From assembly GCF_001748385.1 (NCBI RefSeq), contig NZ_BCLI01000004.1, positions 496,001 through 560,000 on the forward strand: a DNA stretch of 64,000 nt, written 5' to 3'. Shown in pieces: positions 39,901-46,416 of this stretch; position 1 is the first letter of the stretch; each line of letters opens with the position of its first letter. Made by a program: the position numbers and the translations under genes. This DNA comes from Vulcanisaeta thermophila (GTDB lineage: Archaea > Thermoproteota > Thermoprotei > Thermoproteales > Thermocladiaceae). A model generated the notes under the pieces. It was not told where the DNA came from. It saw only the letters and a list, made by a program, of their open reading frames with translations, and did no database searches.

Positions 39901-40914
39901 TTAGGTTATTACCTTCCTCTCATCAAGCAACCTCTTTAATTTATCAATTGGTTCGGTACCCACTGGCTCCGTACCTGTCATCTCGGCTAGGGCTAGTGTG
40001 ACGAGGCCCAGGAATGCCACCCCAAACATCTCACTTTCCAGGGGTGTGCCTCCACTTAGCTTCACGGTTATTGCTTCCTTACCGTATGATTTAACCACCT
40101 CCATTAGGGTCTCCAGGTACCTGGCCTCGTAGTCCCCCTCGCCGTATATGAATACGTGGCTTAAACCCTGCTGCTTGCCCATCACGGCGGCTATGTCGTT
40201 GTGGGCCCCCTCGGGTATTACCGAGACTATTGCGTAGTACTTGGTGTTTTCGTTTAGGTCGTTTTTGAACCTAATCCCCACACCCCTCCTGGATTCCGTG
40301 ACCCAGATCACGGGTACGGTGTTGACGATTCTTCTCGCGATTCCCTGGGCCTCCTCAAGACTCTTTACCGCCTTCTCCATACCCACTATACCGCTCTCCA
40401 ACTCACTTGCCACGTTCATTACCCCAAACCTCTCGAGTATCACCAGGGCTGGGTATAGTAGGGCGGGTAATCCGTACCTTGGGGCTGATGCCTTGGGTAT
40501 TATAATCACGGGGGCGCCCAGCTCGTTGAGGAACTGCGCAAGTTTACCGCCCGTGGTTATGCCTATTGTGGGGAATCCCCTGTTTAGGGCCTCCCTGGCG
40601 CTGGCTATGGTTTCCGCGGTATTACCTGAGTAACTAATGGCTATTACCAGGGGTTTCGAGAGTGCCCTGGGTAGCCTCATCCCCTTGCTTACGATTATGG
40701 GTTTCCCACAACCCCAGAACCAGCAGAGGTCCCCTATTATGTCCCCTACCACGCCCGAGCCCCCCATGCCTGTTATCACCACGGAATCTACATCCTCCCC
40801 GTAGTCAATAGTTCTTCCCTGTATGGTTACCCTCCTGCTCCTCAGGTCCACGGGTATGTTTAGGATGGATTCCCTGGCCAGTGAGGGCCACCTTGGGTAG
40901 TCGAGGAGGTTCAC
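39901..40914 (-). CDS. pgi: Bifunctional phosphoglucose/phosphomannose isomerase
   Basis: The 337-residue SIS-domain protein shows TGMGGSGVVGDII, ISYSGNTAETIA, PKASAPRYGLPALLYP and EGAHNDI, the signature of the crenarchaeal PGI/PMI family (relatives are about 300 residues). It interconverts glucose-6-P, mannose-6-P and fructose-6-P. The frame stays open upstream to 41343, but that part is antisense to the helicase. GTG 40914 lies 25 nt from the TATA at 40935-40943. Confidence 0.9.
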   Translation of the reverse strand: MNLLDYPRWPSLARESILNIPVDLRSRRVTIQGRTIDYGEDVDSVVITGMGGSGVVGDIIGDLCWFWGCGKPIIVSKGMRLPRALSKPLVIAISYSGNTAETIASAREALNRGFPTIGITTGGKLAQFLNELGAPVIIIPKASAPRYGLPALLYPALVILERFGVMNVASELESGIVGMEKAVKSLEEAQGIARRIVNTVPVIWVTESRRGVGIRFKNDLNENTKYYAIVSVIPEGAHNDIAAVMGKQQGLSHVFIYGEGDYEARYLETLMEVVKSYGKEAITVKLSGGTPLESEMFGVAFLGLVTLALAEMTGTEPVGTEPIDKLKRLLDERKVIT

Positions 40915-40934
40915 CTGTGTTATTAAATAGGAAG

Positions 40935-40943
40935 CCTTATATT
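40935..40943. promoter_or_regulatory. Shared bidirectional TATA element
   Basis: CCTTATATT is centred 25 nt from the minus-strand GTG at 40914 and 28 nt from the plus-strand GTG at 40967, so one near-symmetric element could serve both divergent genes. Confidence 0.45.
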
Positions 40944-40966
40944 GTTTATTCAATTGGTTGGTGTTG

Positions 40967-42940
40967 GTGTTATTTAGGGTTGTTATTAATGATGTTGAGA
41001 TTAGGAGGAATTGGGATTGGGGTAGGATTTCCAAGGTCAAGGAGGACCTTAAGAGGCTGGGTTTTAGGTGGAATGGGGAGTACTGGTCTGGGAGGGCCCT
41101 ATCGCCTGTGGTTGTTAAGGAGTTGAAGGATCTCCTGGAACTAACGGAGGATGAGGTGGACAGGATAATGAGGTCCATCGTTGTGAACTCCGAGGGCGGT
41201 GCTGTGGGCATTGAGAACCCAAACCTACCCGAGGAGTTCAGGGAATGTGTCCTAAGTGAGTTTGGCGGTGTTGGTATAGTCTCCATACCATGCATGGTCA
41301 GGGTCTTCGTGAGGAACGATAAGGAGTTCATTGGTAAATCCACCAGTTACGAGGATTATGTGGATAAGGCCCTCGAGTTCGTGAGGAAATTGATTGGTAA
41401 TGCCTACGTAATTGGTAACCTGGAGCAAGCCCTCAGCAGAGCTAAGGAATTCGCACTGGCTAATAGTAAGCTAAGGGGGATTTATGATAGGAGGGTTCAG
41501 TGGTGGACCGCGAGGCTTGACACCTCCTCGGTAACCCTCAACTTCCTATCCAGGAGGTTAATGGATGGTGTAAGGAATCTCGTGGTTCCTTACTACTACG
41601 TGGATAGGGAGGGAAACCTCAACAAGCGTGATTTGAGGTTGATCAGGAGGGATGATATTGTTAGGGAGGGTGGTAAGGTCATCATACGATTCCCACCATT
41701 CCTAAGGGATAGGATTAAGGAGTTGCTAATCAGTAGTGGTTACCGTGTTGAGGAGGTCCCATACAACCCCCGTTACATAACCATACCCAGGGATGACATT
41801 AAGTTACTACCCTTCCAGGAGAAAGCCCTGAGTAACTGGTTAAATTCCGGTATGAGGGGTACGATTGTCATACCCACGGGTGGTGGTAAGACATTCATAG
41901 CCCTAAAGGCCCTGGCCGTGGTTAAGGTCAGGACGTTGGTTCTGGTGGTTACTGAGGAGCTCATGAATCAGTGGTGGGAGAGGTTGATGAGGTATCTGGG
42001 GATTAGGGCTGGTAGGCTTGGGGGTGGGTTTGACGATGTTAGGGAGGTTACGGTTGCAATTTACAACTCAGCCGTTAATAGGATTGAGTCCATAGCTGGG
42101 GGCTTTGACTTTGTTATTTTTGATGAGGCTCACCACGTGCCCGCGGATACGTTTAAGGAGGTTGCCTTTAGATTAACTGCGCCCTTTAGAATGGCCCTCT
42201 CGGCGACCCCAAAGAGGAGTGACTCCAATGAGCACTTAATATTCATGAGCGCAGGCGATATTGTTTACCAGGCTGATTATAGGGATATGGTTAACTCGGG
42301 CCTTGTGGTTCCTGTGCGGCATTTTAGGGTTTACGTGGATCTGTCATTGGATGAGAAATTGAATTATGAAAAGGCGGAGAGAACCAATAACCCAATAATC
42401 ATGAGGAACATAGCCAGCAAGGCTTCAGCCAAGGTTAATGTTGCAGTGGAGATAGTGAAGATGGAGGTGAGGCTTGGTAGTAAGGTTCTCGTATTCACAC
42501 AATTCATAGACCAGGCTGAGGAGATATACAATAAGCTTAAGGATGAGTTGGGGCCCATAGTGGCCCTAATAACATCCAAGGTCAGTGATAGGGACTCCAT
42601 ATTCAGGGCCTTTGCCAAGGGCTCCATCAAGGTCCTTGTAACAACCACAGTCCTGGATGAGGGCATTGACGTACCCGATGCGGATGTCGCAGTGGTGGTC
42701 AGCGGGACTGGTTCGGAGAGGCAGATGATACAGCGTGTGGGTCGTGTGGTTAGGCGTAGTGAGGGTAAGGTGGAGGCCAGGGTTTACGAGATAGTGACTA
42801 GGAACACCATTGAGCAGGCATTGAGTGAGGAGAGGCATGTTAAGGGTGAGGTAGAGGAGGTGGAGTGTAAGTCCTACCTGGCCAATCAACTGGGTAGGCT
42901 GCTCAATCACGTAATGAGTAGCACAAGCCTCTTCAAGTAG
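40967..42940 (+). CDS. XPB/Rad25-like SF2 DNA helicase
   Basis: The 657-residue protein has an N-terminal region of about 280 residues with no motif I recognise. Then come LLPFQEKAL (Q-like), Walker A IPTGGGKTFIALKAL, DEAHHVP, LSATPKRSD, VLVFTQFIDQAEEIYNKL, LDEGIDVPDADVAVV and QRVGRVVRR, as in archaeal XPB. It probably acts in repair or transcription opening. Starts at TTG 40958, GTG 40961, TTG 40964 or GTG 40967 are possible; TATA spacing favours the last two. Bax1, the nuclease partner in some Crenarchaeota, is not next to it. Confidence 0.85.
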   Translation: MLFRVVINDVEIRRNWDWGRISKVKEDLKRLGFRWNGEYWSGRALSPVVVKELKDLLELTEDEVDRIMRSIVVNSEGGAVGIENPNLPEEFRECVLSEFGGVGIVSIPCMVRVFVRNDKEFIGKSTSYEDYVDKALEFVRKLIGNAYVIGNLEQALSRAKEFALANSKLRGIYDRRVQWWTARLDTSSVTLNFLSRRLMDGVRNLVVPYYYVDREGNLNKRDLRLIRRDDIVREGGKVIIRFPPFLRDRIKELLISSGYRVEEVPYNPRYITIPRDDIKLLPFQEKALSNWLNSGMRGTIVIPTGGGKTFIALKALAVVKVRTLVLVVTEELMNQWWERLMRYLGIRAGRLGGGFDDVREVTVAIYNSAVNRIESIAGGFDFVIFDEAHHVPADTFKEVAFRLTAPFRMALSATPKRSDSNEHLIFMSAGDIVYQADYRDMVNSGLVVPVRHFRVYVDLSLDEKLNYEKAERTNNPIIMRNIASKASAKVNVAVEIVKMEVRLGSKVLVFTQFIDQAEEIYNKLKDELGPIVALITSKVSDRDSIFRAFAKGSIKVLVTTTVLDEGIDVPDADVAVVVSGTGSERQMIQRVGRVVRRSEGKVEARVYEIVTRNTIEQALSEERHVKGEVEEVECKSYLANQLGRLLNHVMSSTSLFK

Positions 42941-43161
42941 TGCCTTATTTACTTACCTGGGTATTAATAGGCGTGGGGTTCCTTGAGGAGGTCCTGAACA
43001 TCGTGTTTCAGGAGTACGGGGGCACACTACTGCTTGTGGTGTCCATAGTAATGAGCATCGCATTGATAGTACCATTCACCCACATAGTCTCAAACAACAT
43101 CTTCATAATCAATAAACTACACCACGTAATAAGTACCCTCTGGGGTGCCCTTAATGATTAG
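42940..43161 (+). CDS. Small membrane protein (first of a four-gene set)
   Basis: This 73-residue protein has a hydrophobic N-terminus and a second membrane segment (LLLVVSIVMSIALIVPF). Its GTG overlaps the helicase stop by 1 nt, so it is probably read on the same mRNA. No family recognised. The next three frames are also small membrane proteins on the same strand. Confidence 0.55.
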   Translation: MPYLLTWVLIGVGFLEEVLNIVFQEYGGTLLLVVSIVMSIALIVPFTHIVSNNIFIINKLHHVISTLWGALND

Positions 43162-43312
43162 GTTCATACTCACATCAATACTCATCGTAACCGTCATGCT
43201 CATGCTAATACTCATAACCTCAATATTAATGAACGTGCTAAGCAGCGTGTTAATGGTGAGTAAGCTCTCCAGGGGTGTTATGAATGCCTGTGGACTCATT
43301 AATATACCCTGA
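43154..43312 (+). CDS. Small single-pass membrane protein
   Basis: This 52-residue frame has an ATG overlapping the preceding stop by 8 nt. It has MIR followed by about 25 uninterrupted hydrophobic residues (ILTSILIVTVMLMLILITSI), then a short polar tail with one Cys. The shape is like a pilin-type N-terminal helix. No homologue recognised; support is the overlap, hydrophobic design and position. Confidence 0.5.
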   Translation: MIRFILTSILIVTVMLMLILITSILMNVLSSVLMVSKLSRGVMNACGLINIP

Positions 43313-43589
43313 CCTGGTGATCACAACGGTACTGACACTAATACTAATGATTCTGGTACTTTACCTGGTTAGCGGTCTCGTCCAATTATCAATCAACGAC
43401 TACTACGCATCCCTAAGCACGTATACCTTCTACGAGTGTATGAATAACGGCCTAAAGCCAATGAACCTAACCCATGCATATGTGGTCAGGGGCTTCCTCC
43501 CAAATTACCTAATTCTATGCCCCGTAATAAGGTATGACGATGATAATCATAGCCTAAACGTGACGATTTACACTGTGGTGCCCAGGTGA
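43284..43589 (+). CDS. Small membrane-anchored protein with Cys-containing ectodomain
   Basis: The 101-residue protein has one N-terminal membrane helix (VITTVLTLILMILVLYLV) and a ~65-residue outside domain with two cysteines (FYECMN, LILCPV) and two N-glycosylation sequons (NLT, NVT). It overlaps the preceding frame by 29 nt. No family recognised. Confidence 0.52.
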   Translation: MPVDSLIYPDLVITTVLTLILMILVLYLVSGLVQLSINDYYASLSTYTFYECMNNGLKPMNLTHAYVVRGFLPNYLILCPVIRYDDDNHSLNVTIYTVVPR

Positions 43590-43595
43590 GTATGC

Positions 43596-44375
43596 GTGAT
43601 TTTCAAGTCATTGATACCATTGATCATCACGGTTTTAATAATGATAGCCATAACAACATACCTAACCAGCACATTAAAACCCGCACTGCACGAATCGTTG
43701 AGCATCGAAAACGCCTACCTACTCACAGCCAATACCTTCATACAAATAAATAAATCATTAACCTCACTCGTTAATTACTACGCATGTACCGTGGCCAATA
43801 ACCCAATGACCTACACATGCAACGATCTACTAATCAACATAACCAGCAACACCTGCCATGTGCTGAGCGTGATAATGAATGAAACAGATATTGTTAAGTA
43901 TGAGGTGGTTGATTACGGTCTCAGGGGTATTGGTAACTCCACATTCATCGTGATGAGGGTGGTGGCCCATTACGGGAATTACACTATCAACAGCGTCCTG
44001 GGGACCCCAATACCCAGTGAGTTGTGCTCCTACGTGGATGGGGTTAGATCTTTAATGAGGCTTAATGGTACGGAGCACACAATAATTACTGGTAACATCT
44101 CGAGCGTGGGTTCCCTGGTGAGTTCGTTGATTAAGTCCTACGTGGGTAATGGGCAGTTATTGGTGAATTACCTGGTAATATTTAGGAGGGTCTCCATTGA
44201 GGGTAATATGACGTATTACCAGGGCACACTTCAATTCAGCATAGAACCACTCAATTTATCAATTCCTAACTGCTTAATTAGGGGTGTTAGTGGTGAGGCT
44301 TACATTACGCTGGTTGTGCGAGGCAACCTAACCAGTATCTATGTTTTTGAGGTGAGGGGTTCCCTGGTTACGTAG
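43596..44375 (+). CDS. Membrane-anchored, heavily sequon-bearing surface protein
   Basis: The 259-residue protein starts (GTG) with FKSLIPLIITVLIMIAITTYL, a K-S then uninterrupted hydrophobic run, like class III (pilin) signals. An ectodomain of about 230 residues follows, with about ten N-x-S/T sequons and several Cys (YYACTV, YTCND, NTCHV, ELCSYV, PNCLI). It is probably exposed on the cell surface. It follows the previous frame by 6 nt. Pilin-like or sensor-like roles are both possible. Confidence 0.6.
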   Translation: MIFKSLIPLIITVLIMIAITTYLTSTLKPALHESLSIENAYLLTANTFIQINKSLTSLVNYYACTVANNPMTYTCNDLLINITSNTCHVLSVIMNETDIVKYEVVDYGLRGIGNSTFIVMRVVAHYGNYTINSVLGTPIPSELCSYVDGVRSLMRLNGTEHTIITGNISSVGSLVSSLIKSYVGNGQLLVNYLVIFRRVSIEGNMTYYQGTLQFSIEPLNLSIPNCLIRGVSGEAYITLVVRGNLTSIYVFEVRGSLVT

Positions 44376-44391: not shown

Positions 44392-45480
44392 GTGGTTTTC
44401 CTTAATAAGGGGTTCATAGGCTCTCTCCCAGTGATGATTAACGACCTGTTGAATGGTGAGGTTAGGGAGGCACTCGTCATTGGTATTGGGGGTGGTGGCG
44501 ATGTCATTGGTTCCATACCCACGTACAGGTTATTATCAAGTGAGGGTGTGGAAACACACATTGGTGCCGTTCTGTGGGAGCGCTATGTTAACGATATAGT
44601 GCCGGGACCCATTAGGATTTCAGAGTTACGCAACGCGGAGGCACTCGGTAACTACACTGCAATATTAACCAGCGAGTCCTACGCCATCAGGGCCGGTAAG
44701 GTTGTGGTGCCCCAGTTGGTCAATGTGCTAAAGGTCATAAATGATGATGGGGTAGGCATAAGCATATCCGGACCTGTCTCCTCAGTGGCTGCTGAACTCG
44801 CCGAGTACGTTAATAGGGAGGGTATTGATGCCGTGTTTGGGGTTGACGTTGGTGGTGACGTACTGGGCCTGGGTATGGAGGAGGATCTATGGAGCCCATT
44901 AACCGACAGTTACTCAGTGGCGGTGCTAGCCACCTTGAGGAGGCTGACCAATGTACCAGTGGTACTTGGTATTGCAGGCCCCGGTGTTGATGGTGAGTTG
45001 AAGGCTAATTACGTGCTAAGGAGGATTAGTGAGTTAGCCGGTAAGGGAGCTTACCTGGGAGCCCATGGTATGACCCGTGAGGATGCGTCAGTAATAAGTT
45101 CCATACTTGAGATAGCGATGACGGAAGCCAGTAGGTTGATGTACGAGGCCTTCAGAGGATTCCATGGCGAGTACGTGATGAGGGGCGGCACTAGGTCCGC
45201 CCGTGTGGATATTTCATCAACAATAACCTACTACATAGACCTGGAAGCGGCCCTCCCAGAACTACCCCTGGCCAGGGCCTTGATGGATGCCGAGGATCCG
45301 TGGGACGCCATGAGGAGGCTGAACTCAATGGGTGTGTACACCGAGTTAAACTTTGAGGAGGAGGTTTACAGGTTTTACCTCAATAATAACAGGCTGCCGA
45401 ACCCCCACGAATTAATGGGCATTGTGCAGAAATTAAGGGCCAGCATTGCATCAGCCCGGCAGCATTCATCAGGTTCATGA
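44392..45480 (+). CDS. DUF1152 family protein
   Basis: The 362-residue protein contains ALVIGIGGGGDVIGSIPT, FGVDVGGDVLGLGMEEDLWSPL, LGIAGPGVDGEL and YYIDLEAALPELPLARALMDA, the conserved core of the archaeal DUF1152 family. The glycine-rich start resembles a nucleotide-binding loop, but no activity is established as far as I know. The start is GTG 44392 or ATG 44434. It is the last gene of the run begun by the XPB-like helicase. Confidence 0.8.
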   Translation: MVFLNKGFIGSLPVMINDLLNGEVREALVIGIGGGGDVIGSIPTYRLLSSEGVETHIGAVLWERYVNDIVPGPIRISELRNAEALGNYTAILTSESYAIRAGKVVVPQLVNVLKVINDDGVGISISGPVSSVAAELAEYVNREGIDAVFGVDVGGDVLGLGMEEDLWSPLTDSYSVAVLATLRRLTNVPVVLGIAGPGVDGELKANYVLRRISELAGKGAYLGAHGMTREDASVISSILEIAMTEASRLMYEAFRGFHGEYVMRGGTRSARVDISSTITYYIDLEAALPELPLARALMDAEDPWDAMRRLNSMGVYTELNFEEEVYRFYLNNNRLPNPHELMGIVQKLRASIASARQHSSGS

Positions 45481-45544: not shown

Positions 45545-46021
45545 TTACCCAGTCTCCTCATAAAACAACGCGTAATCCTTATCAGCCTCCCTCATTAACT
45601 GAAGTTGTGATATCCTCTCCTCAGCCCTGCGGTACATGTTCGCGAACTCAATAATCCTACTGGCCACTTCATTGGGGTCGTTGAACTTTGCCGGTGAGTA
45701 TAGGATTTTCCTCGAGCCATTCCTATCAATACTCACCACGTAACCCTCCACAATGCCGCTGGTTGGTACCTTACCAATCTCACCGGTTTCACCGCGTATT
45801 AGAAATACGTATCCTCGCTTTGACCCATCGTTGAAGGTTATCCTCACAAGGACCAGGGCTATGTGGAAGCTCTTTAGGATGTTCGTCACCACGTCCCTAT
45901 ACCTCTCGTACTCACGCACGTAGGGTAGCCTCTCAATTAGTAATAAATCATTCCTACTCAGGTCACTCATTAACTCATTAAGCATGTCAAACACATTCTT
46001 CCCTGAGTTAAGAATCTCCAT
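45545..46021 (-). CDS. Hypothetical protein
   Basis: The 158-residue protein is mixed alpha/beta with a C-terminal helix (RRAEERISQLQLMREADK). The middle segment ITFNDGSKRGYVFLIRGETGEIGKV looks like a small beta-sheet domain. ATG 46021 is preferred over TTG 46036, given the TTTATTA element 26-30 nt upstream. Divergent from the gene at 46102. Not recognised. Confidence 0.6.
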   Translation of the reverse strand: MEILNSGKNVFDMLNELMSDLSRNDLLLIERLPYVREYERYRDVVTNILKSFHIALVLVRITFNDGSKRGYVFLIRGETGEIGKVPTSGIVEGYVVSIDRNGSRKILYSPAKFNDPNEVASRIIEFANMYRRAEERISQLQLMREADKDYALFYEETG

Positions 46022-46101
46022 ACGCGTAATGCGCAACGTGGGGGTAATAAAGGATTACCACCCAGGATTAATGTTAAAAATGGGCGTGGTGTCAATACAA
46101 T

Positions 46102-46416
46102 GTGGAGGGTGTGGATAGGAGGGTTTATGAACTTCATAGTAGGGTTATGAGTATGTTCATGGGTGGTAAGTGCTATGATTTAAATGGTGAATTGGTAATT
46201 GATTGCGTCAAAGAGGCACTCAGCGAGGTGGGTCTAAGGGTAACCTCTCTCTCACTATATAATTTAGACGGTAATGAGGTGAGCGACATCAATAATGCCC
46301 GTTACCTCAGGGTTGAGACGCAGGGGGACATACCGGGCAGGCACATATTCACATTCGCCATCATCAAGGTAAGGGATAGGTTTAGGGTACTCTACCTTCA
46401 ATCAGCAATTAGTTAA
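46102..46416 (+). CDS. Hypothetical small protein
   Basis: The 104-residue protein with two Cys (KCYDLNG, IDCVKEAL) has a predicted alpha-beta mix. The GTG start at 46102 is 26-30 nt after GTTAAAAA. Divergent from the preceding gene and not recognised. Confidence 0.55.
   Translation: MEGVDRRVYELHSRVMSMFMGGKCYDLNGELVIDCVKEALSEVGLRVTSLSLYNLDGNEVSDINNARYLRVETQGDIPGRHIFTFAIIKVRDRFRVLYLQSAIS

Follow-up and report, generated by a model that had tools for sequence, protein, structure and literature searches.

The window analysed here, a 64,000-nucleotide (nt) stretch (positions 496,001 to 560,000 of contig NZ_BCLI01000004.1) of the 2.02 Mb, ten-contig genome of the archaeon Vulcanisaeta thermophila, carries four short genes (o1 to o4) behind a gene for an XPB-like helicase of superfamily 2 (SF2), and this cassette is the subject of the present analysis (Table 1). 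A sequence-only reading of the window had described four overlapping or near-abutting frames at this place, and these are borne out as real, coding, and conserved genes: o2 overlaps o1 by 8 nt, o3 overlaps o2 by 29 nt, and 6 nt separate o3 from o4. The in-frame GTG at 42940 with which that reading began o1 was replaced by the start at 42976, the upstream stretch not being conserved among relatives, and the cassette thus spans 42976-44375. Three of the four proteins have one N-terminal membrane helix, as had been proposed (o2, o3, and o4; the helix of o1 sits mid-protein), and the last two do carry cysteines (Cys) and tails rich in N-glycosylation sequons. Four of the five cysteines of o4 fall in invariant columns of its alignment (A3).

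Table 1. Genes of the helicase-cassette locus, with positions in the window and lengths in amino acids (aa).
Feature	Position	Strand	Description	Basis
XPB-like SF2 helicase, 660 aa	40958..42940	+		Pfam ResIII, Helicase_C, ERCC3_RAD25_C; PDB sequence search
o1, 61 aa	GTG 42976..43161	+	Acidic N-terminus, membrane helix mid-protein, ~25-residue tail without sequons
o2, 52 aa	ATG 43154..43312	+	MIR[YF] start, single N-terminal membrane helix
o3, 101 aa	ATG 43284..43589	+	N-terminal membrane helix; 3 sequons and 2 conserved Cys in the tail; helix 7-54 and beta strands predicted
o4, 259 aa	GTG 43596..44375	+	N-terminal membrane helix, large and probably outer domain, 10 sequons, 5 Cys; predicted helix 2-68 and two beta-strand parts
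DUF1152 protein	44392..45480	+	Downstream neighbour	Pfam PF06626, E = 1.9e-99

Absent or scrambled frames in close relatives, which the sequence-only reading had named as speaking against it, were not the rule: the order helicase-o1-o2-o3-o4-DUF1152 is kept in 11/11 other Vulcanisaeta genomes (12/12 with the window). Broken frames were seen in three assemblies (o4 in G003 and G009, o2 in G002), in which the helicase gene is fragmented too; the alignments leave out these frames (A2 of o2 without G002, A3 of o4 without G003 and G009) as well as G003 for o1 (A1) and o3 (A4). In the five closest pairs per gene, the ratio of non-synonymous to synonymous substitution rates (dN/dS) is 0.16-0.40 for o1, 0.06-0.23 for o3, and 0.16-0.21 for o4, and the single computable pair for o2 gives 0.19, all well below 1. 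Within the genus, o4 is 27-33% identical to its window counterpart, versus 54-79% for segments of the helicase.

Beyond Vulcanisaeta, the helicase was recognized across genomes by its N-terminal 94 residues, and the frames behind it were then read. In a sister genus known from metagenome-assembled genomes (g3), diverged o1-o2-o3 stand directly behind the same helicase in 5/5 genomes, with o4 being a separate Cys-bearing protein in two of them and a mere second membrane helix fused to o3 in three. All six Thermoproteus (g7) genomes likewise have a diverged o1-o2-o3 directly behind the helicase, one of them disrupted (G033), and lack o4; the genes that come next were labelled by eye as ferredoxin-like and sirtuin-like. 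In Pyrobaculum (g5), other frames lie directly behind the helicase, and an o1 profile located the three genes ~2 kb further on, encoded on the opposite strand and forming a head-to-head pair with a large tRNA-synthetase-like gene. Profiles built from Thermoproteus and Pyrobaculum find both o1 and o3 in 9/11 Pyrobaculum genomes (8 near the helicase). In total, the three-gene core is present in 32 of the 45 Thermoproteales genomes searched, in four of eight genera. The genes o1-o2-o3 form the unit of the cassette, o4 having been added in a lineage, and the helicase is the ancestral operon partner of this unit, through a link older than Vulcanisaeta. The helicase neighbourhood is both real and old, the cassette standing directly behind the helicase and co-oriented with it in three genera of two families. 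The DUF1152 gene, which the sequence-only reading had regarded as the other bracket of the cassette, trails it in Vulcanisaeta only and not in g3, Thermoproteus, or other genera; the proposed helicase-cassette-DUF1152 order is thus conserved throughout one genus and not further, and DUF1152 was rejected as a component of the system. A literature search on DUF1152 in archaea found nothing.

Searches with profiles mark the limits of recognizable similarity. Among 81 genomes of the class, all strong matches of the Thermoproteus and Pyrobaculum profiles fall within those two genera; the best matches outside the order (o1, E = 0.002, within a 296-aa frame; o3, E = 0.04) were taken as chance. The Thermoproteus sets leave out the disrupted G033 for o1 and o3, and the Pyrobaculum sets leave out P. 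oguniense and G025 (a near-copy of G038), with G032 also omitted for o2. Profiles of o4 and of Vulcanisaeta o3 each match 12/81 of the same genomes, Vulcanisaeta only, and o4 gives weak second matches at residues 17-104 in G008 (E = 7e-5) and G003 (E = 1.5e-3). A Thermoproteus-only o3 profile run against the 45 genomes of the order matches 8/45 at E <= 0.1 (six Thermoproteus, G005, and G029), the match in G005 (E = 1.4e-5) running across a frame with two stops. A single-sequence o4 scan of the contig collection genome_contigs returned 27 pattern matches, with no relative among them.

The relationship between the diverged sets was assessed by profile-profile comparison (hhalign), in which short proteins give low scores, with an all-against-all comparison as the control. 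Among 45 pairs (Vulcanisaeta, Thermoproteus, and g3), the top four by raw score and by probability are all cognate (o2 of Vulcanisaeta and g3, 93%; o1 of Vulcanisaeta and g3, 81%; o1 of Thermoproteus and g3, 20%; o3 of Vulcanisaeta and Thermoproteus, 19%). The first five of 30 Pyrobaculum comparisons by raw score are cognate as well, and the best of the 30 pair Pyrobaculum with Thermoproteus (96% for o1, 96% for o2, and 54% for o3). The combined Thermoproteus and Pyrobaculum o3 profile aligns with that of Vulcanisaeta at 41% over 75 columns, the best of 21 comparisons, with both cysteines and an acidic residue aligned. The locus illustrates how gene position can rescue homology where sequence similarity is almost gone.

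The helicase has an SF2 core and an ERCC3/RAD25 C-terminal part (PF16203, 43 bits versus a cut-off of 27; ResIII and Helicase_C above cut-off), and its best PDB matches by sequence are XPBII/RAD25 (E = 9e-63, best stretch residues 256-474). Its score of 187.5 against the NCBIfam XPB equivalog NF045503, for which 610 bits are required, makes it an XPB-like protein and not a clear XPB orthologue. The N-terminal region comprises ~270 residues, the first ~94 of which were found in 39/398 genomes of the phylum, all Thermoproteales. An intein-like insert was seen at the DEAH motif of the helicase in relatives (PF14890, E = 1.2e-8 at L146:5705-8374, +, and 3e-5 at L093:3-1856, +, matches that miss the curated cut-off, barely or by a wide margin), and in G004, G008, G011, G012, and G015 just an insert at the same site was seen; the window copy has none. 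In Vulcanisaeta (window 39901-42940), g3, Thermoproteus, and most Pyrobaculum (loci L085-L088 and L127-L142), the helicase is paired head to head with a phosphosugar-isomerase-like gene that we take to be PGI. On the other side of the cassette, at 45545-46416, two short unrecognized genes (163 aa, -, and 104 aa, +) lie beside DUF1152 in 11/11 other Vulcanisaeta genomes, the 104-aa gene being inverted in two of the 11 (G007 and G010).

The tails of o3 and o4 are enriched in sequons. The window proteins contain 3 (o3) and 10 (o4) sequons versus 0.9 and 3.9 after shuffling, and the pooled tails, drawn from related and hence non-independent sequences, contain 23 versus a shuffled mean of 9.1 (Vulcanisaeta o3), 17 versus 4.1 (Thermoproteus o3), 19 versus 5.7 (Pyrobaculum o3), and 97 versus 45.0 (Vulcanisaeta o4). 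The enrichment is two- to four-fold for o4 and for o3 of all three genera, with 0/2000 shuffles reaching the observed count, and the controls show no such excess (six cytoplasmic proteins of the window; o1 tail, 0 versus 2.3). In the sequences read, each of the three genera has its o3 sequons at other positions, a pattern suggestive of selection favouring outer exposure and not of inheritance. The enrichment argues for o3 and o4 tails that are probably exposed outside the cell.

The sequence-only reading had likened the layout to minor-pilin or pseudopilin cassettes, and the predicted structures agree with this in outline. AlphaFold models o4 (5 sequences; predicted local distance difference test score, pLDDT, 85.9) as helix 2-68, a second helix, a three-strand meander, and a second helix-strand part, and o3 (8 sequences; pLDDT 73.1) as helix 7-54 with short strands, outlines that are both pilin-like. 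The structure prediction proposed for 43596-44375 thus yielded the long helix with strands, but no solved fold stood above noise for o4 or o3 in Foldseek and VIA-align comparisons; the minor pilin 7ba2_A (Z 5.1, root-mean-square deviation 3.0, 84 residues aligned) was tied with unrelated chains. Candidate matches of o4 to PDB folds (best E = 1.5e-3, template modelling (TM) score about 0.2) and to viral models (three below 0.001, TM under 0.3), and of o3 to the fold libraries (best E = 0.9), were not assigned, and the missing assignment does not demonstrate a new fold.

Among pilin signals, the strict prepilin motif [KR][GA] was found in 0/94 sequences of 13 sets. A loose class III-like motif occurs in 10/11 Vulcanisaeta o3 and 10/10 Vulcanisaeta o4 but only in 1/5 Thermoproteus and 2/7 Pyrobaculum o3, in a test that is uncalibrated, as the same motifs did not single out pilins at the secretion-ATPase loci of this genome either. 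All 12 Thermoproteus and Pyrobaculum o3 have an acidic residue 5 or 6 positions from the start. The absence of a secretion ATPase, noted from the sequence, holds at the locus, where no assembly ATPase or platform gene lies between the helicase and DUF1152; it does not hold for the genome, in which four T2SSE matches above cut-off occur outside the locus on contigs C1 and C4. Pilins can be unlinked from their assembly genes, so that the missing ATPase and platform lower the case for pilin membership only in part. A Peptidase_A24 (prepilin peptidase-like) gene also lies 13 kb upstream of the window (PF01478, E = 7.7e-13; L208:4254-5081, that is, G000 contig 4, 482253-483080), and with the T2SSE ATPases elsewhere it makes processing and assembly in trans possible. 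At one T2SSE locus (L210:6401-7340), two short N-terminally anchored proteins are encoded upstream of the ATPase, one of which starts MALDRLIAEV, resembling the way in which o3 of relatives begins (MALADSLVFPD).

None of the four proteins reaches the cut-off of any Pfam or NCBIfam family. The o3 protein has a single weak PHROG match (E = 2.7e-4, function unknown) over its membrane helix, Thermoproteus and Pyrobaculum o1 and o3 give scattered single-member Pfam matches (best E = 0.011) with no pilin family among them, and o4 has 0 matches to PDB by sequence. No o4 relative was found among viral contigs with two patterns derived from A3, and no account of the cassette was found in the titles and abstract beginnings searched.

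The most likely reading, for which we consider the odds about even, is that the products of the four genes belong together in a single fast-evolving envelope complex, ancestrally linked to the helicase in an operon. Its core would be o1-o2-o3, old in the Thermoproteales; o3, and o4 in Vulcanisaeta, would be anchored by the N-terminal helix and expose on the cell's outside a domain that is N-glycosylated and able to form disulfides. The short helical tail of o1 probably stays on the cytoplasmic side, and o2 would be a bare membrane helix. The overlap of the genes suggests that translation is coupled to the assembly of a small oligomer, which may be a stalk of pseudopilin type or a patch resembling a receptor or stator. 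This module would have joined the transcription unit of the XPB-like helicase early, so that both were made together, and later lineages would have uncoupled them.

Several results weigh against this picture. P. oguniense has lost the link to the helicase: its three-gene set lies 1.2 Mb away, beside genes labelled by eye as PP-loop-ATPase-like and aminopeptidase-like. The cassette was undetected in Caldivirga (g2, 0/5), Thermocladium (g4, 0/3), g6 (0/1), and the metagenome-assembled g8 (0/2), which implies that it is dispensable there or diverged beyond detection. Some cognate pairs stand at noise in hhalign (Vulcanisaeta o2 and o1 against their Thermoproteus and Pyrobaculum counterparts, g3 o3 against every o3), so that their homology leans on gene position and size. 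The charges flanking the o3 helix are more positive behind it in 11/11 Vulcanisaeta and 5/5 Thermoproteus sequences, a pattern that under the positive-inside rule would put the tail in the cytoplasm, contrary to what the sequons indicate. The sequon counts come from related sequences that are not independent. The sequons were given more weight, and the conflict stands.

Another explanation, which we think possible although rather unlikely, is that a set of small membrane proteins with some housekeeping or surface role merely shares the transcription unit of the helicase as a hitch-hiker, with no joint function. The opposite-strand position of the Pyrobaculum set, the unrelated neighbours in P. 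oguniense, and the helicases of Caldivirga and Thermocladium that have no detected cassette all fit such a history; what speaks against it is that in three genera, from two families, the genes follow the helicase directly and in its orientation, overlapping or nearly abutting. The proteins are unlikely to be minor pilins or pseudopilins cut by the prepilin peptidase of the genome and assembled in trans by one of its secretion ATPases. The long helix followed by strands in both models, the acidic residue near the start of Thermoproteus and Pyrobaculum o3, the loose motif in Vulcanisaeta, and the peptidase and T2SSE genes speak for such pilins, and an in-trans pairing of pilins and ATPases has been proposed for the Thermoproteales (PMC4858521, in the excerpt available), but the strict signal is missing throughout, the relaxed one occurs in few Thermoproteus and Pyrobaculum o3, and neither a pilin family, a solved fold, nor a gene for an ATPase or platform in the locus supports them.

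The sequence-only reading had also raised DNA uptake or exchange. A device for these or for membrane-linked repair, with the XPB-like translocase acting at a pore or anchor of o1-o2-o3, appears improbable: the ancestral operon with a DNA translocase is the sole basis of the idea in the data, and with Ted the order does have an example of DNA-import machinery encoded near repair genes (excerpt of PMC9905601), but the cluster has no polytopic channel or nuclease, the order already possesses Ted with a different gene content, and the linkage is lost in P. oguniense. A bolder version of the envelope complex is a long shot; it would be an order-specific machine of leaderless pilin-like subunits with an acidic residue some five positions in from the free N-terminus and a disulfide-locked, glycosylated head, in which the co-transcribed XPB-type translocase drives or gates the three-gene core and moves or anchors DNA at the membrane. 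A virus-derived or anti-virus surface module is very improbable; the fast evolution of the outer part relative to the helicase would suit it, but the viral contigs hold no o4 relative, the weak PHROG match of o3 stands alone, and the genes are present throughout genera and are not patchy. The Thermoproteales gain a candidate surface complex whose ancestral tie to a DNA translocase can be traced, and four anonymous short frames have become a gene family that is defined, open to testing, and unrecognized by the family libraries used.

Among known systems, the helicase core is closest to XPBII/RAD25 and in this resembles archaeal XPB-Bax1, as presented in the available parts of PMC7293015 and PMC7672443, from which it differs in an N-terminal region limited to Thermoproteales; no Bax1 was found among the 9 proteins scanned around the locus, the search not having extended to the rest of the genome. 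The cassette resembles Ced/Ted, in the excerpt of PMC9905601, in having, within the same order, genes for small membrane proteins close to those for DNA-processing enzymes. Ted as described there consists of the pilin TedC, the seven-helix TedA, and the VirB4-like ATPase TedB, whereas the cassette has no VirB4-like ATPase, seven-helix channel, or VirB2-like pilin, with one predicted helix per window protein, and the helicase beside it is XPB-like SF2 and not VirB4/HerA-like. Compared with the type IV pili of the Thermoproteales, as far as the excerpt of PMC4858521 portrays them, the locus lacks an ATPase or TadC, a canonical prepilin signal, and Pfam pilin similarity, but it shares with them small, fast-evolving, membrane-anchored proteins with conserved cysteines, a predicted long N-terminal helix followed by strands, and a peptidase and ATPases encoded elsewhere in the genome.

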